Below the pieces are notes generated by a model that was not told where the DNA came from, searched no databases, and saw only the letters and a list, made by a program, of their open reading frames with translations. A stretch of 30,099 bases of DNA. Source: a virus. The position numbers were made by a program, and so were the translations under genes. Shown here in pieces: positions 2,033 through 26,794 of this stretch. Within the stretch, counting starts at the first letter, position 1. Every line of letters starts with the position of its first letter. The stretch spans positions 1 through 30,099 of the IMG/VR virus record IMGVR_UViG_3300046804_004776; one strand, given 5' to 3'.

Positions 2033-3011
2033 TGTATCCAATGCTATTGATGAGAGTGATTACAGTATCGTATCAAGCACTGACAATTTATCTGCTGTTG
2101 CCGGACACACACGTATTTACATTCAGCATGTGCCTGAAATCAAAAAGGTAATAGATCAATGGGATCTGTACTTTGCATTTGATAGGGTAGATGCTCTTGT
2201 TGAAGATAACCAAAGGCGTATTTATCCCAATATTGCAGAAGACTACAGGCGTATTCTCTATCGCAAAGGTATACGTTGTCAGAATGAAGGTAAGTCACTC
2301 TATCATTACGACCTTCCTGATTTTCATATCAATGAAAGTCGTGTGATTGAGAATATTTGGAGTGCAAGAAGATTAATAGCAAAAGCTGTTGTTTCGATTG
2401 CTACAAAAGACATCGCCAGTGGCATTATGAAAAATGCCTTTAAAGAAAATACATACATCGAAACAGGACTTTACTATCACAGTGATACATGGGGTCTTAC
2501 AATGTCTCAGGGCTGGCGAGATGCTATTGGTGACAAAATAATTGTGAATGTTGACCTTGGCGGTTTTTATGCAGATAAGATCATGCGGCATCCTCATTTT
2601 CTGGTATCAAAAGAACTGGCCAGGAAAATCAAAGATTCTTTTCCCGAAGTGCAAGTATATGGCGTAGGTGATGACAAAGAAGTATTTACCGAGAAAGTAG
2701 ATACCACACCTAAAATGAACTACCAGTTGAAGAAGGCCATAGAAGCTCTGGATGAAATGAAGTACGTTGTCAGCTATCCTATCGAGGTAGTAAAATTCAG
2801 TGACAATACAGTTTTGGGCCAGGCAAAGAATAGCATCATTTATCTCTCTGAAAAAGTATTTGACAAAGGTATCAGGGAGGTAGCTCTTACCATTATGGAA
2901 GAGAATGAACATCTTCTTACCGGTCACATGGATGCTACCAGAGCTTTCCAGGATCATTTATTCAACAAACTGTTGTCTGCTATGGAGGAGCAACATGGTA
3001 TATTCTTGTAA
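2033..3011 (+). CDS. GHKL-type ATPase, exon 2 (N-box and C-terminal domain)
   Basis: Reading in frame from 2033 gives VSNAIDE, completing the N-box REFVSNAIDE begun in exon 1. After an insertion of about 17 residues comes AGHTRIYIQ, strikingly like MutL's AGATRIDI, the strand that follows the N-box in MutL. The GTG at 2130 would give an apparent 293-residue ORF but would omit this motif, so translation most likely enters from exon 1 after splicing. The rest (about 290 residues) is not recognised. It includes an acidic, His-containing stretch EENEHLLTGHMD near the C-terminus that superficially resembles a metal site, but I do not assign a function. It ends with TAA just 9 bases before the lipoprotein gene. 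Confidence 0.72.
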
Positions 3012-3020
3012 ACAAAAAGC

Positions 3021-3272
3021 ATGAGAAAAATAGCATTAGGAGCTCTACTACTGTTGAGCATTACTAGCTGTAGAAGAACAGTAGCTGATTATGAAGAAAG
3101 AGCAGCAGGGGTACGTAAAGTATGTCCACATTGCACATTTGTGACATCAGAAAATAGGTATTATGCAGTTGATACAAGTAAACAACCAAATATCATCTAC
3201 ATAGTATCTTTTAAGAGTGGTGGCTTTTTCTATACAGCATCTGACGTTGATCATCTTATAAGAGTAAATTAA
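3021..3272 (+). CDS. Small phage lipoprotein
   Basis: An 83-residue protein with a clear lipoprotein signal: basic start MRK, hydrophobic core ALGALLLLSIT and lipobox ITSC with Cys17 as the expected lipidation site after signal peptidase II cleavage. The mature part is about 67 residues, contains a CPHC pair (about residues 35-38) and no further membrane segment, and should face the periplasm or outer membrane. Phage-encoded lipoproteins are often superinfection-exclusion or lysis factors, but nothing in this sequence decides between these. It follows the GHKL gene by 9 bases and is the last protein gene before the structured intergenic region. Confidence 0.72.
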   Translation: MRKIALGALLLLSITSCRRTVADYEERAAGVRKVCPHCTFVTSENRYYAVDTSKQPNIIYIVSFKSGGFFYTASDVDHLIRVN

Positions 3273-3285
3273 ATGTCAAAAAAGA

Positions 3286-3316
3286 TTGGTTATTTCTAAT
3301 AATTATCTTACCTTTG
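3286..3316 (+). promoter_or_regulatory. Bacteroidota-type promoter for a small RNA
   Basis: TTG at 3286-3288 and TACCTTTG at 3309-3316 are separated by 20 bases, matching the Bacteroidota primary sigma factor pattern (TTG/TTTG -33, TAnnTTTG -7). Transcription would start around 3322-3324 and run into the terminator hairpin at 3388-3425, predicting a transcript of about 110 nt. This is a sequence match only. Confidence 0.5.
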
Positions 3317-3322
3317 ACGAGT

Positions 3323-3434
3323 CAAATGACCTGTGGAAAGTAAGTTTGACATTGATACTGAAAAAGCTCCTAGTGAGTAATAATACGCCCCAGCCAGAAC
3401 TTCTCCACAGGTCATATGGCTGGGGTTTTTCTTT
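3323..3434 (+). ncRNA. Candidate small structured RNA with terminator-loop pseudoknot
   Basis: There is no convincing protein gene here. Near the predicted 5' end, GACCTGTGGA (3328-3337) is perfectly complementary over 10 bases to TCCACAGGTC (3404-3413). The second copy lies in the 20-base loop of a 9-bp hairpin (CCCCAGCCA 3388-3396 with TGGCTGGGG 3417-3425), so the two helices together form a pseudoknot topology. The hairpin is followed by TTTTTCTTT, so the RNA ends in an intrinsic terminator. Further complementarity upstream (AATGTCAAA 3272-3280 with TTTGACATT 3345-3353; TTTGA/TCAAA at 3313-3326) could form if transcription reads through from the lipoprotein gene. It may act as a regulatory RNA or as a mechanism controlling readthrough. 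I recognise no known family. Confidence 0.5.
3388..3434 (+). terminator. Rho-independent terminator
   Basis: A 9-bp GC-rich stem (3388-3396 with 3417-3425) with a 20-base loop is followed directly by a T-rich tract (3426-3434). The loop is unusually long and is complementary to 3328-3337 upstream. Confidence 0.7.
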
Positions 3435-3593
3435 CTATGCTTATTCCCCACGACCTGTACAGAGTACATCAGGTAAATTAAACATACAGTAATACCAGAA
3501 AGCTTATAGGCTGCATCGTATTTGAAAGAATATCGCTAACTATAAGAAGAAGAATGGATATGTTGAAAAATTCCTGCTCTGTCTGAAGGTGAC

Positions 3594-3780
3594 AACAGGA
3601 GCTCGTGAGATTGTAAGTAGCATACTCCCCCTGATTTCGAGGAAACATAGCTTGAACAACTATGAAGTAGAGGTGATTATTGATTTGATAGTAGGGTACT
3701 CTTTCTTTTAAACCTACTGAACCTTTGTGATTTACTTGCTTTGATTACTTCAGCAAGTACTCTCACGAGGAAAACCTGTT
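3594..3780 (+). ncRNA. Candidate structured RNA element closed by a long-range helix
   Basis: Two perfect complementary pairs are nested at the two ends of this stretch: AACAGG (3594-3599) with CCTGTT (3775-3780), and CTCGTGAGA (3602-3610) with TCTCACGAG (3761-3769). They are separated by a small internal loop, giving 15 bp of long-range helix around a 150-base interior. Inside are local hairpins: CATAG/CTATG (about 3648-3666), AGTAGG/CCTACT (about 3691-3717) and ACTTGCT/AGCAAGT (3734-3740 with 3752-3758). The arrangement looks like a multi-branched RNA. It lies 21 bases upstream of the gene at 3802 and could be a leader element for that operon, an independent ncRNA or a remnant ribozyme. No tRNA, tmRNA or RNase P features were recognised. 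Bases 3435-3593 between the two RNA candidates hold nothing I can name. Confidence 0.45.
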
Positions 3781-3801
3781 CACGTCTAAAAACACTAAAA
3801 A

Positions 3802-3999
3802 ATGAATAACAATCACAGAACATTCATCCGTACCTGGTGGAAGAAAGATGCCAATGGTAAACTTATACCTCATCTTGGTCGTAAAACACCAGTGCGTAAT
3901 AATCTAACTGCAGAAGAAGCAAGAAAAATGTGTACCGAGTACAATAGAAGTAATGATCCTGGTCCTCTTGGTCGTAAAATGGAATTTGAATCTTATTAA
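3802..3999 (+). CDS. Small hypothetical protein
   Basis: A 65-residue basic, hydrophilic protein with no membrane segment. The ATG at 3802 follows the A-rich leader CTAAAAACACTAAAAA typical of this genome. A segment AEEARKMCTEYNRSNDPG suggests a short helix followed by a turn. Function is unknown. It is the first gene after the structured intergenic region, and its expression may be influenced by that region. Confidence 0.6.
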   Translation: MNNNHRTFIRTWWKKDANGKLIPHLGRKTPVRNNLTAEEARKMCTEYNRSNDPGPLGRKMEFESY

Positions 4000-4022
4000 G
4001 TAAACAGGTAAAATAGTACAGT

Positions 4023-4544
4023 ATGAAATTTAAAATAGGAGATAAAGTTGTACCTCTATCAAAATCAATTGGTATGACTAAATTGCCAAACTGTCTTCAA
4101 TGGCAGACTGCTATCTCTACCGGTCAAAACTATTTATTTGTAACAAATATTGATGGTGATATTGTTACATGTAGTCATGCAAAAAATGTGAATGTGAATG
4201 GGGGCAACTGGTATTTGCAATCAGATTTGATACCTTATGTTGAACCAGTAAATACACAAAAAGAAGAAGAAGTAAATATGGAGAAAACAATACTGGAAGA
4301 AGCTCAGTCACTTATCTATGGTGACCGTGAGAAGGATTACGGTAAGACATCTGATAACTTTGCTGACATAGCTAAAGGTTGGGAAGTTATTACCAAGACA
4401 AGTATTACACCGGAACAGGTTGCACTAATGATGGCCTGGTTGAAGATCTGCAGAGCAAATAAAGACAATTGCGGTAAGCGTGATAGCTATGTTGATCTTG
4501 CAGGTTATGCCGGCTGTATTGAAAAGATCAAAAAGGGTTTATAG
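4023..4544 (+). CDS. DUF6378-domain protein with N-terminal beta-rich domain
   Basis: A 173-residue protein in two parts. Residues 1-75 look like a small beta-barrel (KFKIGDKVVPL start, resembling KOW/SH3-like folds). After a Lys/Glu-rich linker (about 79-86), residues 87-173 match the phage DUF6378 pattern: ILEEAQSLIYGDREKDYG, then a helix, MMAWLKICRA, and the ending DSYVDLAGYAGCIEKI. DUF6378 is widespread in phages, its function is not established, and it is usually found as a stand-alone domain. The internal ATG at 4278 (MEKTILEEAQ) could start a domain-only product. I see no NTP pyrophosphatase catalytic motif that would support a MazG assignment. Confidence 0.72.
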   Translation: MKFKIGDKVVPLSKSIGMTKLPNCLQWQTAISTGQNYLFVTNIDGDIVTCSHAKNVNVNGGNWYLQSDLIPYVEPVNTQKEEEVNMEKTILEEAQSLIYGDREKDYGKTSDNFADIAKGWEVITKTSITPEQVALMMAWLKICRANKDNCGKRDSYVDLAGYAGCIEKIKKGL

Positions 4545-4579
4545 TAATAATTTTTTTCACAATCAAAATCAACACTCTC

Positions 4580-4924
4580 ATGAGATTAAAAAGAAGCAAA
4601 GTAGGAGGAATCCTCATCATGGCTGGTAGTGCAATTATGGGCACTGCATATGTACCTGTTCCAAAACCAAGAGCAAGTCGGGAGTTTATCAGTAAAACAT
4701 ATGCTCGTCCTACTGGTCAACAGAGATGGCAAGCATCTGAAGCACGTAAAGCAGAAATTCTCAGAAATCTTGATAATGCTAAAAAGGCTATTCGGAATAA
4801 AGCTGAGTCATTCAAAATTGACAGAAATACCAAAGTGACAGGGTATACAGCTAATCAAAAAATTATTGTTCACAGCACAAGGCTTATGTCAAATATAGCT
4901 GACTGCGTAAATTGTAAATCATGA
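4580..4924 (+). CDS. Hypothetical protein
   Basis: A 114-residue basic protein. The N-terminus (MRLKRSKVGGILIMAGSAIM) has a positively charged start and a short hydrophobic stretch, which could be a weak signal or membrane anchor. The remainder is helical and hydrophilic with many Lys, Arg and Asn residues. There is no recognised domain. Its end overlaps the next start by 4 bases (ATGA at 4921-4924), indicating translational coupling. Confidence 0.55.
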   Translation: MRLKRSKVGGILIMAGSAIMGTAYVPVPKPRASREFISKTYARPTGQQRWQASEARKAEILRNLDNAKKAIRNKAESFKIDRNTKVTGYTANQKIIVHSTRLMSNIADCVNCKS

Positions 4925-5103
4925 AGATTACGTGGATTATCAATGGTAAAGTTCAGTTGGTTCTTACTCCTTCAAATGAAAGAGAAAAACAACTACTGCA
5001 GGAACTTTCACAGACACCGGTAGACATGCAAATGTTTGATAAACTGCAAACAGGTCCAGATAGTCATGTAGATGCAGTAGTCATTACAACAAAAACAAAT
5101 TAA
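4921..5103 (+). CDS. Small hypothetical protein
   Basis: A 60-residue protein beginning in the ATGA overlap with the preceding gene. It has an N-terminal beta-hairpin-like stretch (ITWIINGKVQLVL) and then a helix (NEREKQLLQELSQ). Function is not recognised. It is the last gene before the hairpin at 5111-5135 and the polymerase gene. Confidence 0.55.
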   Translation: MKITWIINGKVQLVLTPSNEREKQLLQELSQTPVDMQMFDKLQTGPDSHVDAVVITTKTN

Positions 5104-5110
5104 TAATTAT

Positions 5111-5135
5111 ACACCGGGACTTTTTGTTCCGGTGT
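5111..5135 (+). terminator. Intergenic hairpin, possible terminator
   Basis: ACACCGG (5111-5117) pairs with CCGGTGT (5129-5135), extended inward by three weaker pairs around a TTTTT loop. No T-run follows on the plus strand (ATTAAATT), so termination is uncertain. It could instead be an RNA processing or stability element ahead of the polymerase gene. Confidence 0.45.
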
Positions 5136-5149
5136 ATTAAATTAGGCAT

Positions 5150-7219
5150 ATGAATACGGAAGATTTAAAAGTAGAAGTCTGTGACATTGAGACATATAAA
5201 GCATTATTTTTATATAATGGATATGATGTTCAAACCGGAGAAAAGTTTCAATTTGAGGTATCATTCAGAAAGAATGAAATAGATGGTCTTGTTAAACATT
5301 TACTTGAATATCCTCGTTGGGGATTATGCACTTTTAACGGAGTGTATTTTGACACCCAGGTATTGCAATTTATTGTAGACCATTATGAGAAATGGACACA
5401 TTTTACCTGGAGGCAAGTAGTAGATGAAATATTCTATTTTGCACAACAGACTATTGATGATAGGAACTATGAGCTACCTCCAAAATACAAAGAACAATAT
5501 CTGAGCTTTAAGCAAATTGATTTGTTTCTTCTATTGCATTACAACGGAGATGCTAAAAGGACCAGCTTGAAATGGACAGAATTTTCTCTGGATGGTGATA
5601 TCGAAGAACTTCCTATTGACTTCCGTAAAGAGGAATTACTATCAGAAGAAATTGATGATGTGATTTCTTATTGTTGGAATGACGTAATGGCTACTTACAA
5701 CCTGTACAAGGTATGTATTGGCGATACTGAACATCCTGATTACAAGGGTAAGAATAAAGTACAACTCCGGCTTGACTTGATTGATGAATATGAACTGTCA
5801 CACGTTGCTCTTAACTGGAATGATGTAAAGATTGGCACAGAGTTAAATAAGAAATCTTATTTACAACTTTCAAAAATTAACGAAGCTCAATTGTATTCTA
5901 AAGTTAAAGAAAGAAAAACCAAAACAGGTTTCTATTTCAAAGACTGTTTTCCTGAATACATGAAATTTCAGACAAAAGAGTTTCAGGATTTCTTTAAGAC
6001 CGTTGGTAATATAAAAGTCAACCTAAATGAAAAACAGGAATTTCCATTTACAAAAAATGGTACAACTTTTATGTTTGCTAAAGGTGGTTGTCATTCACAG
6101 GATAAACCAAAAAAGATAAACATTCCTCAAGGTTATATTTTGATAAGTGCGGACGTTTCCAGTATGTATCCGAATATAATTCGCAAGAGAAATATCTATC
6201 CTTCGCACCTTGGTCCTAAATGGAATGAGGCATATGTTTTGAATATATCAAAAAGACTTGAAGCAAAGAAATTGTATAAGCAAACTGGTGAAAAGAAGTA
6301 TGACAATTTTCAGGAAACCTATAAGTTGATTTTAAATGGTTCTTTTGGTAAACTTGGTGATACATACGATTGGCAATATGATGCATTTGCAGGTATGCAA
6401 GTTACCATCGGTGGTCAGATTGATCTTTTTATGTTGATTGAAAGATTTTGCATAGCTGGATTTCAAATAACTTCTGCAAATACAGATGGTATGGAATGTC
6501 TTGTGCCTGTAAATAGAATACAAGAATACTATGAGATATGCAAGGATTGGGAAGAAGAAGTAGGTAACGATGTATTAGGTAACCTTGAGTACGTAGAGTA
6601 TGAGATGTTTGCTCAAACTTCAGTTAATGATTACATAGCTGTAAAGAAAGCAGACTGGATGTGGAAAGATGATGAGTTTAAAGCAGTACCTATTGATAAA
6701 CCGGTTGAGAAAAGAGTAAAGGTAAAAGGGGATTTCTTAACATCTTATGCTATCGAAAAGAATAAATCAAAAACAATAATACCAATAGCATTGGAGAAAT
6801 ACTTTACTCAAGGTATTCCAGTTGCAGATACAATCAAAAATCATCGAAACATCTTTGACTTTTGTATTGCCAAGAAAGCATCAAGGGATTACTTTTATCG
6901 TTCTGTAAACCGAGAGAATGGCACACAAACAGATCTCAACAAAATGATTCGTTACTACTGCTCTAAAGGTAAAGGTGAAAAACTGTTTAAAATAAAGAAA
7001 AGCAGTAGTGATAAAACTGGTCCAGAGCAATCAGCATGTGAAAGTCAAAGTAATCAGCAAGTCTTGTTCAATCGTCCGTTTAAGTATGAAAAATGGGAAG
7101 ATTATGGAATTCATTACCAGTTCTATATAGACCAAGCATACAAGATCATTGATAAGATTCAGCCGGAAAATATTACTCAAAGAAAAGCGAAAGAAAGTGG
7201 CCAAATTAGTCTGTTTTAA
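5150..7219 (+). CDS. Family B DNA polymerase
   Basis: A 689-residue replicative polymerase with both proofreading and polymerising motifs. Exo I is DIE at 12-14, Exo II is NGVYFD at 63-68 and Exo III is YCWND at 174-178, so the DnaQ-like 3'-5' exonuclease looks active. Polymerase motif A is ADVSSMYPNII (334-344, Asp335), motif B is YKLILNGSFGK (391-401, Lys392, Asn396) and motif C is NTDG (444-447, Asp446). Two metal-binding aspartates are therefore present, although the usual DTDS/DTDG begins with Asn here. At 689 residues it is compact for the family. It sits immediately upstream of helicase, Sak4-like ATPase and SSB genes, consistent with the phage replisome. The start ATG at 5150 follows the hairpin at 5111-5135. 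Confidence 0.93.
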   Translation: MNTEDLKVEVCDIETYKALFLYNGYDVQTGEKFQFEVSFRKNEIDGLVKHLLEYPRWGLCTFNGVYFDTQVLQFIVDHYEKWTHFTWRQVVDEIFYFAQQTIDDRNYELPPKYKEQYLSFKQIDLFLLLHYNGDAKRTSLKWTEFSLDGDIEELPIDFRKEELLSEEIDDVISYCWNDVMATYNLYKVCIGDTEHPDYKGKNKVQLRLDLIDEYELSHVALNWNDVKIGTELNKKSYLQLSKINEAQLYSKVKERKTKTGFYFKDCFPEYMKFQTKEFQDFFKTVGNIKVNLNEKQEFPFTKNGTTFMFAKGGCHSQDKPKKINIPQGYILISADVSSMYPNIIRKRNIYPSHLGPKWNEAYVLNISKRLEAKKLYKQTGEKKYDNFQETYKLILNGSFGKLGDTYDWQYDAFAGMQVTIGGQIDLFMLIERFCIAGFQITSANTDGMECLVPVNRIQEYYEICKDWEEEVGNDVLGNLEYVEYEMFAQTSVNDYIAVKKADWMWKDDEFKAVPIDKPVEKRVKVKGDFLTSYAIEKNKSKTIIPIALEKYFTQGIPVADTIKNHRNIFDFCIAKKASRDYFYRSVNRENGTQTDLNKMIRYYCSKGKGEKLFKIKKSSSDKTGPEQSACESQSNQQVLFNRPFKYEKWEDYGIHYQFYIDQAYKIIDKIQPENITQRKAKESGQISLF

Positions 7220-7221
7220 AC

Positions 7222-7252
7222 TTGCAAGTTTCACTTTTTTATTGTAAATTCG
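7222..7252 (+). promoter_or_regulatory. Possible Bacteroidota-type promoter
   Basis: TTG at 7222-7224 and TAAATTCG at 7245-7252 are spaced by 20 bases, one mismatch from TAnnTTTG. They lie just after the polymerase stop and 23 bases before the next ATG. A second promoter here would uncouple the helicase block from the polymerase. This is a weak match. Confidence 0.35.
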
Positions 7253-7274
7253 TAACCCTTTTCAAGTACACAAA

Positions 7275-7748
7275 ATGTCAGTAACATTACCTCAATTCAA
7301 TGATATCAAGAGGTTCTTAAGGAACAATCCTGATGGTGGATACGAAGAATGGCATAATCAATACAGACCGGTAAGAGAAAAGAAAGAGATAGAGTATCCT
7401 GAAGCGTTTAACACTTGGTGGTGTACTTACCCGGCAAGCATGAACTTCCTGTTTAAAGGTCGGAAGTTTACTGGTACAAGAGGACTGAGAGATGAGAAAC
7501 AGAAGACCTTTAAGGCATATGAAGCAGCAAAGAAAGCTGCAGGTTTTAGTGATGAAGATATGCTCTACTGCCTCAAGGTAGAAATAGAGCTGAGGAAAGT
7601 AACAAGCTATAATCATAGAGATCCTAAGTACAATGATTTCCAGTATATGAAAGCTACAATAGCTTATCTCAATGCTGGAAAGTTTAAGTACTACAAGGAT
7701 GAAGAGCTTAAAGAGTTATCTGACGATACCGAATCAAACAGTGCATAA
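7275..7748 (+). CDS. Hypothetical protein between polymerase and helicase
   Basis: A 157-residue charged protein rich in aromatic residues (YEEWHNQYRP near the start; AFNTWWCTYP about residues 44-53), with a long helical middle. It has no recognised domain. Its TAA stop overlaps the helicase ATG (TAATG at 7746-7750), so the two proteins are likely made together. A helicase-loader or replisome-accessory role is suggested by position only. A pattern such as FNTWWCTYP followed by KK-rich helices is seen in some phage primosome-like proteins, but I cannot make that assignment from sequence alone. Confidence 0.6.
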   Translation: MSVTLPQFNDIKRFLRNNPDGGYEEWHNQYRPVREKKEIEYPEAFNTWWCTYPASMNFLFKGRKFTGTRGLRDEKQKTFKAYEAAKKAAGFSDEDMLYCLKVEIELRKVTSYNHRDPKYNDFQYMKATIAYLNAGKFKYYKDEELKELSDDTESNSA

Positions 7749-8866
7749 TGAGTCTATCAAAAGAATTACATAGGGAGATCGAGAATGGTAGAAACGGTAA
7801 AGCCGGTATTATACCTATAGGTTATGATAGAATATCTGATTACATTGAAATTGCAAAAAACACTACTTATGTTGTTGGGGGTGAGACTTCTGCAGGAAAA
7901 TCTACCTTGACACAGGATATGTTTATGATCCGTCCTATTGAATGGTACTTGCAAAATAAGAATGATGACATCAAGCTTTCTATTATCCTTTTTGGTATGG
8001 AACGTAAGATGTATCAGTATAGTGCCAGGTGGTTAGCTCGTAAAATATTTACAGAGCAGGGAATTGATATTCCTCCAAAGAAAGTATTGAGTAGACAGAA
8101 GAATTTCAAAATGACTGACAAGGAATATATGTTGGTACAGGAATACTACAAGGTACTTGATGAGTGGGAGAAAGATGATCTGTTGCTTGCATTTGAGGGC
8201 TCTAAAAATCCATCTGGTATCAGTGCTTACCTTGAGGCATTTGCGAGGAAACATGGGAAAATCATTGACAAGGATAAGACCGATAAAAGCATGGAGAATA
8301 TCCTGGCTGATCGTACTTATGTTCCTAACCATCCTAATCATATCGTACTGGTCATAGTTGACCATATCGGTATATTAAAGCCAGAGAAAGATCTTGAAAA
8401 GTCAAAAGGACAGATTGATAAATTCAGTACTGTAATGCGACAAGCTCGAGATATATATGGTTTTTCTCCGGTTATTGTTCAACAATTGAATAGAAGTTTA
8501 TCAGATGTTACAAGATTAAAACTTGGTGATCTGGCACCAAAGCTAAGTGACTTTGCAGACTCATCTCAAACACAACATGATGCAGATGTGGTACTTGCTT
8601 TGTTTGAACCTTTTAGGCATATAGTAGGTGACCTTGATGGTCATAAAGAAAACGGATATATACTAAAAGGTTTTAGAGATGATTACTTCAAAACTTATTA
8701 CAGATCATTGCATATTCTCAAGAACTCTTTTGGGACTAATGGTATTCAATTTCCTATGGGTTTACAACCAGAGTACGGAATATTTCGAACATTGCCTCGT
8801 AAAAAAGATATAACTGAAGATATCTATGGAAAAGTTACTTCAGGTGCATATTTCTTAGAAGATTAG
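7748..8866 (+). CDS. DnaB-like replicative helicase (superfamily 4 ATPase)
   Basis: A 372-residue protein with a RecA/DnaB core. Walker A is GGETSAGKS (44-52) and Walker B is LVIVDHIG (about 201-208, Asp205), with a following motif VIVQQLNRS (242-250) that matches the DnaB sensor glutamine segment (V..LSQLNR in DnaB). DnaB's N-terminal primase-interaction domain is absent, because the P-loop starts within 45 residues of the start, so this is a core-only phage helicase. An insertion between the P-loop and Walker B (about 100-195) is long and charged. It would unwind DNA 5'-3' as a hexamer ahead of the family B polymerase. It starts in the TAATG overlap with the preceding gene. Confidence 0.85.
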   Translation: MSLSKELHREIENGRNGKAGIIPIGYDRISDYIEIAKNTTYVVGGETSAGKSTLTQDMFMIRPIEWYLQNKNDDIKLSIILFGMERKMYQYSARWLARKIFTEQGIDIPPKKVLSRQKNFKMTDKEYMLVQEYYKVLDEWEKDDLLLAFEGSKNPSGISAYLEAFARKHGKIIDKDKTDKSMENILADRTYVPNHPNHIVLVIVDHIGILKPEKDLEKSKGQIDKFSTVMRQARDIYGFSPVIVQQLNRSLSDVTRLKLGDLAPKLSDFADSSQTQHDADVVLALFEPFRHIVGDLDGHKENGYILKGFRDDYFKTYYRSLHILKNSFGTNGIQFPMGLQPEYGIFRTLPRKKDITEDIYGKVTSGAYFLED

Positions 8867-8885: not shown

Positions 8886-9596
8886 ATGAGTACACAAAGT
8901 GGTGCAGAGCAGAAACAGTCATCTGCATTAGAGCGTTCATTTTGGGGCAAAGTAGCTATTGTTGGCCCTACAGGTGCAGGTAAATCATACCTGTCAAAAA
9001 CGGTAGATAGAGAAACTACCGGGTATATTAATATGGAAAGGAAACCTCTTCCTTTTAAAGACGGTGGCCCATTTGTAAACATGGGAATGCCTAAAAACTG
9101 GGCATCGTTTAAGGCCAACCTTGAGAAGTATGGTAATGATGAGAAAATCAAAAGAATCATCATTGACAGCCAGACAATGGCTTTTAATACTCTTAACAAG
9201 GAGATGGCAGTAAACTTTACCGGTTTTGATATCTACAAGAACTATAACAGGCAGGTGTATGAGTACATTGAGCTTCTCAAAAACATTGAGAAAGATATCA
9301 TTGTATTCTCACATGATGAATGGCTCAAGGTAGAAGGTGAAGGTAAAAAGAGGATGATGTCTGTACATGGTAAAGAGTTTGAAGGTAAAATCGAACAGCA
9401 CTTTACTATTGTATTGTACACCGGTACCAGGATGAAGGATGGTAAGCCACAGTACTTCCTTCGGACGTTTGAACAAGATACATCAACTAAAGTACCTGAA
9501 GGTATGTTCCCAGATAAAAACGGAGACAATTTCCTTGAGATACCAAATGATGGTAAGTACATTTTTGATAGTATTGAAAAGTACTATTCTATTTAA
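8886..9596 (+). CDS. Sak4-like RecA-fold ATPase
   Basis: A 236-residue protein with Walker A GPTGAGKS (27-34) and Walker B RIIIDS (90-95, Asp94), followed by a polar segment ending a strand at IIVFSHDEW that fits the RecA-fold sensor strand. Size and layout match the phage AAA_24/Sak4 group, ATPases that assist single-strand annealing recombination and often neighbour an SSB gene, as here (9640). The protein would act with the SSB on ssDNA during recombination-dependent replication. An alternative is another RecA-core ATPase used in replication. The intergenic gaps on both sides carry the TTAATCAATT repeats. Confidence 0.75.
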   Translation: MSTQSGAEQKQSSALERSFWGKVAIVGPTGAGKSYLSKTVDRETTGYINMERKPLPFKDGGPFVNMGMPKNWASFKANLEKYGNDEKIKRIIIDSQTMAFNTLNKEMAVNFTGFDIYKNYNRQVYEYIELLKNIEKDIIVFSHDEWLKVEGEGKKRMMSVHGKEFEGKIEQHFTIVLYTGTRMKDGKPQYFLRTFEQDTSTKVPEGMFPDKNGDNFLEIPNDGKYIFDSIEKYYSI

Positions 9597-9630
9597 TCAA
9601 TTTAGTTAATCAATTTTTTTTTAATCAATC
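9593..9630 (+). repeat. TTAATCAATT direct repeats, three copies
   Basis: TTAATCAATT occurs at 9593-9602 and 9606-9615, and the variant TTAATCAATC at 9621-9630, in the short gap before the SSB-like gene. The first copy overlaps the preceding stop codon (TAA 9594-9596). It could be a protein-binding or translation-leader element. Confidence 0.6.
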
Positions 9631-25864: not shown

Positions 25865-25885
25865 GTTTGCAAATTTGTATATTTG
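25855..25885 (+). promoter_or_regulatory. Bacteroidota-type promoter for the homing endonuclease
   Basis: TTTG (25855-25858) and TATATTTG (25878-25885) are spaced by 19 bases, an excellent match to the Bacteroidota -33/-7 consensus. It sits at the end of the HNH gene, 24 bases before the GIY-YIG start. Confidence 0.65.
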
Positions 25886-25909
25886 CATTCTACACCAAAA
25901 CTACTAAAA

Positions 25910-26794
25910 ATGTATTATTTGTATACACATAAGAAAAAAGACACAAAAGAAGTTTTTTATATAGGAAAAGGTACAGTTACTATAAATGCAAATAGACCTA
26001 ATCATTCACAAGAAAAATATTCTAGAGCTTTTAGTAGAGCAGGTAGAAATAAAATTTGGAATGAAGTAGCACCTAATGGATATATAGTAGAAATAATAGA
26101 AGAATCAGAAGATGAAAATTACATTTTACAAAAAGAAAACGAACTAATAAAAAATTGTGATTCTTGTATAAATAAACAAACTAATGAAAAGTTTAAAGAA
26201 TATAGTATTCAAAAATTATCAGAATCTGTAGCACTTTTAACTGTATTTACAAATAAGTATATTTTACTAAATACTGGTAAAATATTTAATACCAGTGGTG
26301 TAGAATTAATAGGTTCCGATAATGGTAGAGGATATAGAGTTATAAAATTTGTCGGAAAGAAAAATAAAAGGTGTAGAATTATTTATATACATAGATTAGT
26401 AGCAGAAGCTTTTATAGATAATTCTGAAAATTACCCTATTGTGAATCATAAAGATTCAATAAGGTACAATAATCATGTATCTAATTTAGAATGGTGTACG
26501 CAAAAACAAAATATAAATCATGCTATAAATAAAGGATCATATTATTTAATGAATGCTAAACCAGTTTTACAGTTTTCAAAAAGTGGTGATTTTATAAAAG
26601 AATGGGAATCTGCTAAATTGGCTGCAGATAGTTTTAATTGTACATCTCCAACTATACAAATGGCAGCAAAGCAAAGTAATTTAAGATGTGTATCTGCAAA
26701 AGGGTATATATGGATATATAAAGAGGAATTTGAAAAGGGTATTAATGATAAAATGTTTAATGCTATTAAAAAATTTAAAGAAGAAAACCATTGA
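25910..26794 (+). CDS. GIY-YIG homing endonuclease with HNH and NUMOD1 domains
   Basis: A 294-residue mobile nuclease gene. The ATG at 25910 (MYYLYTHKK) is preferred to the TTG at 25883, because the GIY-YIG domain begins here. The GIY-YIG part has YLY (3-5) and FYIGKG (16-21), followed by RAFSRAGRNKIWNEV with Arg, and then a Glu. The middle contains an HNH_3-type segment (IHRLVAEAFIDN, VNHKDSIRYNN, SNLEWCT) and the end a NUMOD1-like module (KPVLQFSKSGDFIKEW to GYIWIY). It is very AT-rich compared with its neighbours. It has its own promoter and sits between two partial copies of the HNH gene end, indicating a recent insertion. Confidence 0.85.
   Translation: MYYLYTHKKKDTKEVFYIGKGTVTINANRPNHSQEKYSRAFSRAGRNKIWNEVAPNGYIVEIIEESEDENYILQKENELIKNCDSCINKQTNEKFKEYSIQKLSESVALLTVFTNKYILLNTGKIFNTSGVELIGSDNGRGYRVIKFVGKKNKRCRIIYIHRLVAEAFIDNSENYPIVNHKDSIRYNNHVSNLEWCTQKQNINHAINKGSYYLMNAKPVLQFSKSGDFIKEWESAKLAADSFNCTSPTIQMAAKQSNLRCVSAKGYIWIYKEEFEKGINDKMFNAIKKFKEENH

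Follow-up and report, generated by a model that had tools for sequence, protein, structure and literature searches.

The window analysed here is an entire 30-kb IMG/VR contig (30,099 nt). At 3309-3434 on its plus strand lies a compact element in which a promoter box is followed, within about 110 nt, by a 5'-terminal hairpin (P1), a possible small middle hairpin and a terminator-like hairpin (P2). A conserved non-coding block and a series of genes on the same strand follow, among them a DNA polymerase gene whose product is related to the polymerases of crAss-like phages (27-31% identity). The features are as follows.

3309-3316, plus strand: -7 promoter box TACCTTTG
3321-3350, plus strand: predicted 5'-terminal hairpin P1, stem 3321-3325 (GTCAA) with 3346-3350 (TTGAC), 5' kissing segment in the loop
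3326-3337, plus strand: 5' kissing segment ATGACCTGTGGA, perfect 12-nt complement of 3404-3415
3366-3378, plus strand: possible small middle hairpin GCTC/GAGT, from folding and by-eye comparison with relatives L012 and L258
3387-3426, plus strand: predicted intrinsic-terminator hairpin P2, 10-bp stem 3387-3396/3417-3426
3404-3415, plus strand: P2-loop kissing segment TCCACAGGTCAT, perfect complement of 3326-3337
3426-3434, plus strand: terminator U-run TTTTTCTTT as read in the sequence, TTTTT at 3426-3430
3453-3720, plus strand: conserved non-coding RNA-like cassette, 3' of the terminator and reached only by readthrough
3802-8866, plus strand: 65-aa ORF, DUF6378 gene, 114-aa ORF, DNA polymerase gene (5150-7219, plus strand), 157-aa ORF and DnaB-like helicase gene (7748-8866, plus strand)

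The -7 box fits TAnnTTTG, the promoter consensus of Bacteroidota (PMC7366714), in agreement with the promoter proposed in a first-pass annotation of this DNA, and a box of the same type is found upstream of the element in other loci of group A (see below). A possible -33 element, around 3285-3290 in the sequence, is weak. Transcription would start about 5-7 nt past TACCTTTG, so that the RNA would begin almost directly with P1. P2 has the textbook form of an intrinsic terminator, its G-rich arm running into at least four T, and from the layout of promoter and terminator termination should yield an RNA of about 105-110 nt, which corresponds to the short transcript that had been anticipated.

A 10-base pairing between 3328-3337 and 3404-3413 had been noted previously. 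This pairing is real but extends to 12 bp (3326-3337/3404-3415), and hairpin P1 had been missed. Since P1 encloses the 5' segment, the pairing is, as predicted from the sequence, a loop-loop (kissing) interaction between P1 and P2, which are about 65-70 nt apart in the window RNA. The 12-bp ATGACCTGTGGA/TCCACAGGTCAT duplex has a predicted energy of -20.2 kcal/mol, and for a 22-nt loop compared with 75 nt upstream the chance of at least 10, 11 or 12 bp is 0.0016, 0.00045 and 0.000075 per terminator, respectively. In a promoter-anchored scan of all loci, the null of equal size contained a single match, which was weaker than that of the window. The simple fold of the putative small RNA is unremarkable (z = -1.04), because simple folding cannot show the kissing helix. 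A second helix of 9 bp, between 3272-3280 and 3345-3353, had been suggested for readthrough transcripts. The match exists but is unsupported, and we have rejected it: 3272-3280 lies upstream of the promoter, and the other strand, 3345-3353, takes up the 3' arm of P1, so that the helix would compete with P1. By eye, no counterpart was found upstream of the L012 element.

Contigs encoding homologues of the window's neighbouring genes (group A) show the same layout in other letters. Their 5' segments and terminator loops are listed below; L258 and L264 were contributed by two DNA-pattern scans.

L012: TGGACCCTTGGAA/TTCCAAGGGTCCA, perfect complement
L002: GGAGTCCCTGGAA/TTCCAGGGACTCC, perfect complement
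L003 and L004: GAGGACCGGCAAA/TTTGCCGGTCCTC, perfect complement
L007: GAAGACCGGCAAA/TTTGCCGGTCTTC, perfect complement
L058: TAGAAGACCGGCAAA/TTTGCCGGTCTTCTA, perfect complement
L258: 5' segment TGAACCGTGGAA, perfectly complementary to its own terminator loop
L264: 5' segment GGAGCCCGTGGAA, perfectly complementary to its own terminator loop

The helix is thus kept at 12-15 perfect pairs while its letters differ, which is the covariation that the first-pass annotation had proposed to look for in related phages. The 5' segments of L002 and L264 differ from each other at two positions, each matched by a compensatory change in the loop. MAFFT alignments of all group A or all group B members (group B is described below) misplaced the kissing columns, and counts were therefore made on two subsets, A8 (group A) and A6 (group B). 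In A8, 7 of the 13 kissing pairs were changed on both sides and none was broken, and the covariation score of the whole structure was 0.344 against 0.130 for shuffled alignments (0/500), collapsing when the structure was slid along the alignment as a control. The P2 stems covary in both subsets. P1-like hairpins occur at the equivalent place in L012, L258, L002, L264, L003 and L058, and a small hairpin is possible, by eye, at the place of the middle hairpin in L012 and L258.

In L002, L003 and L264 the middle of the element contains a stretch similar to the 5' segment, with the potential to pair with the loop plus the 3' arm of P2 (in L002 about 9541-9549 with 9589-9597, with equivalents in the other two). 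Within this subgroup alone it could serve as an antiterminator; as a general mechanism it was rejected, being absent by eye from the window, L012 and L258. Between the gene for an 83-aa lipoprotein and the element, L002 carries ORFs for a 58-aa membrane-protein-like and a 270-aa lipoprotein-like product, which are also present in L003 and L004 (by DNA) and absent from window 3272-3802.

The first ORF in group A lies 210-391 nt downstream of the element. In the window, the cassette in between is 74% identical to L012 over 279 nt, and a two-sequence consensus fold shows 13 compensatory, 5 one-sided and no broken pairs. Equivalents lie at 12181-12456 in L012 and about 2990-3300 in L258, and L002, L004 and L264 have a different block at this place. 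The cassette is conserved to this degree, yet the homologous proteins of the window and L012 are much more diverged (p293 24%, polymerase 47% and DnaB 59% identity). The block has no match in Rfam.

To what extent the architecture occurs elsewhere was assessed with a structural pattern that required a promoter box TA-TTT[GC], the hairpin P1, a P2 resembling a terminator, and loops pairing perfectly over 6 or more positions, with an equal-sized third-order Markov sequence as null. The layout was recovered in many other contigs of Bacteroidota phages: at scores of at least 55 there were 49 distinct matches against 1 in the null, and at scores of at least 60 there were 22 against 0; some matches come from near-identical phages, and a few are probably chance matches or reverse-complement duplicates. 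Permissive scans yield some chance matches, and some null matches appear at lower scores. Outside group A, 38 of the 44 matches scoring at least 55 end 4-32 nt upstream of the ATG of a substantial ORF, giving the order promoter, intrinsic terminator, same-strand gene; the window has this order too, with a 376-nt non-coding stretch before the gene. The compensated kissing helix supplies a conserved upstream structure predicted to interact with the terminator.

The genes after these leaders outside group A commonly encode a DnaD-like replication protein, some relatives of which are annotated as DnaD or replication initiation, or an HNH protein (by eye, HNH-type genes in L131, L137, L031, L024 and L164). 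In L023 and L129 the leader precedes a large gene which the window carries split as 410-748 and 2130-3011. The isolate Polaribacter phage Danklef_1 has one kissing leader, with a 7-bp kiss, near 28.55-28.66 kb; a kissing leader on every operon is ruled out by this single occurrence. Riemerella phage vB_RanS_PT33 and Bacteroides phage BS-TP3 gave weak DnaD-like matches with little or no annotated room upstream.

Since the structural scan itself selects for complementarity, an unbiased sample was drawn from the leaders that precede the DnaD-like gene: 23 of them, non-redundant and picked by promoter and T-run only. The complementarity of each 5' region to its own loop averaged 18.6, compared with 12.8 for mismatched pairs; 74% of the leaders, but 5.5% of mismatched pairs, reached 18, and none of 10,000 permutations reached the observed mean. 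In canonical members of group B the P1 loop reads N6AC-AYYATA and the P2 loop AR-GUN6. The search pattern did not include the inner P2 stem, in which 71 of 72 cells nevertheless pair (mean 39.7 and maximum 55 in permutations). In A6 all helices, P1 included, covary, with 23 of 28 pairs changed on both sides and a score of 0.767 against 0.224 (0/500). A covariance model of group B, R1, matches L131, L139, L157, L196 and L197 but, at E≤1, neither the window nor any other group A locus. What groups A and B appear to share, judging by these comparisons, is therefore an architecture, common descent being unproven. The window, L003 and L012 records hold one copy of the element each as scanned, and some group B records hold two. 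No copy was found in an R1 search of 396 host genomes of one order, a search of low sensitivity, and restriction to phages is therefore not established.

At the gathering threshold Rfam 15 gave no match in the window or in 11 relatives, in line with the annotation's remark that no known family was recognised. At E≤5 there were only sub-threshold, chance-like matches and nothing convincing, the likeness to Rfam families being limited to that of a small, structured intergenic RNA from a bacterium or phage. Searches of this kind miss an RNA switch whose members have their architecture, not their sequence, in common. In the literature we found no description of such a kissing-loop terminator leader, and the element seems to belong to an as yet undescribed class of RNA switches.

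Taken as a whole, the element is probably an RNA leader that acts in cis and carries its own transcription attenuator, by which readthrough is set. Sequence and covariation show the two hairpins, the helix between their loops and the leader position; termination at P2 in vivo, its modulation by kissing, and the direction and signal of that modulation are what we infer. P1 would fold first, and P2, made about 65 nt later, would present a large loop complementary to that of P1, so that the two could kiss through the 12-bp helix. Docking of the loops may alter the folding or stability of P2, and the docked or undocked state would then determine what share of transcripts ends at the U-run and what share continues into the operon. 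In most relatives readthrough would reach the gene starting 4-32 nt further on, and in the window group first the structured non-coding cassette, with the DNA-polymerase/helicase genes behind it. The genes at 3802-8866 are accordingly proposed as the target of the window leader, and a leader role in group A would rest on analogy with the other leaders. In most of the contigs checked the kissing segments occur nowhere else, and the partner is therefore taken to be in cis. We favour, but cannot prove, a default OFF clamp that is relieved during infection. P2 looks like a good terminator on its own, and kissing could instead serve stability or another role.

Purine, fluoride and SAM-I riboswitches likewise place a docked loop-loop or pseudoknot structure in the leader ahead of a terminator. 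Here, in contrast, docking involves the loop of the terminator, and only short linkers (AYYATA and AR in group B) are conserved, with no ligand-like core. Attenuation controlled by antisense RNA is known from the rep leaders of plasmids pT181 and pIP501, in which a leader terminator controls the replication gene. In pSA564 (RepA_N) the terminator loop of the antisense RNA1 has been proposed to kiss the repA leader, favouring a terminator (PMC8129170); as proposed for the window element, a kissing hairpin doubles as intrinsic terminator, and a leader terminator controls a replication gene. In these three systems the partner is a separate antisense RNA, whereas both loops of the window element are on one transcript. 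The put RNA of phage HK022 is a leader that acts directly on polymerase and suppresses pausing and termination (PMC9378689). Like the proposed leader, it is a structured part of early phage transcripts with an influence on termination; the element differs in having its own terminator-like hairpin and loop-loop helix.

The first-pass annotation had left the choice between a self-contained non-coding RNA and a terminator switch. The leader position in most relatives, with the terminator 4-32 nt before an ORF start as is typical of leaders, favours the regulated terminator. We consider it unlikely, though worth keeping in mind, that the product is instead a stand-alone RNA of about 105-110 nt, compacted by the kissing helix and acting in trans on host or phage. 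Its own promoter and terminator, the single copy in the window, L003 and L012 records as scanned, and the lack of a gene directly after the terminator in group A all fit such an RNA, but the kissing sequences diverge fast and are mostly unrepeated in the contigs checked, which suits a conserved trans target poorly. Even under a regulated terminator the terminated RNA would still be made and could act. A trans regulon was rejected, the kissing segments being unrepeated in most contigs. In L193 (2649/2752), L174 (1512/1605) and L158 (9891/9992) the 5' kissing segment recurs at the start of the downstream gene, where the terminator loop could also pair; this recurrence is not general. A leader peptide was also discarded as a general mechanism: the 5' segment of the window includes ATG ACC TGT GGA AAG TAA, but an ATG is missing from this place in most relatives.

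It is improbable that the structure protects or exposes an mRNA without any regulated terminator, the kissing complex shielding the 5' end from nucleases, and P2 with the U-rich stretch keeping the start codon open. P1 at the extreme 5' end, and P2 with an A/U-rich stretch directly before the start codon in group B, agree with this proposal. On the other hand, P2 is a textbook intrinsic terminator, with a G-rich arm and at least four T, and in group A the structure lies 210-391 nt from any ORF start.

Terminated leaders, each carrying a loop together with its complement, might also pair in trans with nascent leaders of the same phage and raise termination as genomes accumulate, a control of copy number or superinfection resembling plasmid antisense attenuation, which we regard as decidedly improbable. 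RNA1 of pSA564 is a close analogue (PMC8129170), the elements often lie upstream of replication genes, and kissing sequences differ between near relatives (L012/L258 and L002/L264), a diversity that self-recognition would, if true, explain. However, kissing within one molecule should normally outcompete such pairing, an antisense transcript is not predicted, and the L012/L258 difference coincides with a recombination boundary. There is at best a slim chance that self-recognising leaders couple replication-gene expression to genome copy number and confer sequence-specific superinfection exclusion. The boundary itself is seen as a jump in identity at the element, from at most about 45% upstream to 90-100% downstream, between about 2850-3000 of L258 and about 12010-12160 of L012.

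That the element is an inverted repeat, and lies near this boundary, is about all that speaks for a recombination site, protein site or origin acting as DNA, a reading that is almost certainly wrong given the fixed place just after a promoter, the T-run, the strand asymmetry, the leader position and the independent covariation of the P1 and P2 stems. Chance is ruled out by the nulls and the covariation.

A cis-acting attenuator of this kind would add kissing by the terminator loop in cis to the known attenuator mechanisms. It would bear on how Bacteroidota phages, crAss-like phages included, time their genes. The switch recurs before replication and homing-endonuclease genes, can be tested in the isolate Danklef_1, and is small enough to serve as a regulatory part in Bacteroidota genetics.

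Two further regions of the window contain homing-endonuclease-like sequences. In L012, L023 and L024 a single gene of 425-449 codons corresponds to the ORFs at 410-748 and 2130-3011, which are separated in the window by a LAGLIDADG ORF with an HTH (773-1774), which looks like an intron or other homing-endonuclease insertion. At 25883-26794 a TTG-start ORF of 303 aa, by eye homing-endonuclease-like (GIY-YIG/HNH type), adjoins small HNH-like ORFs.
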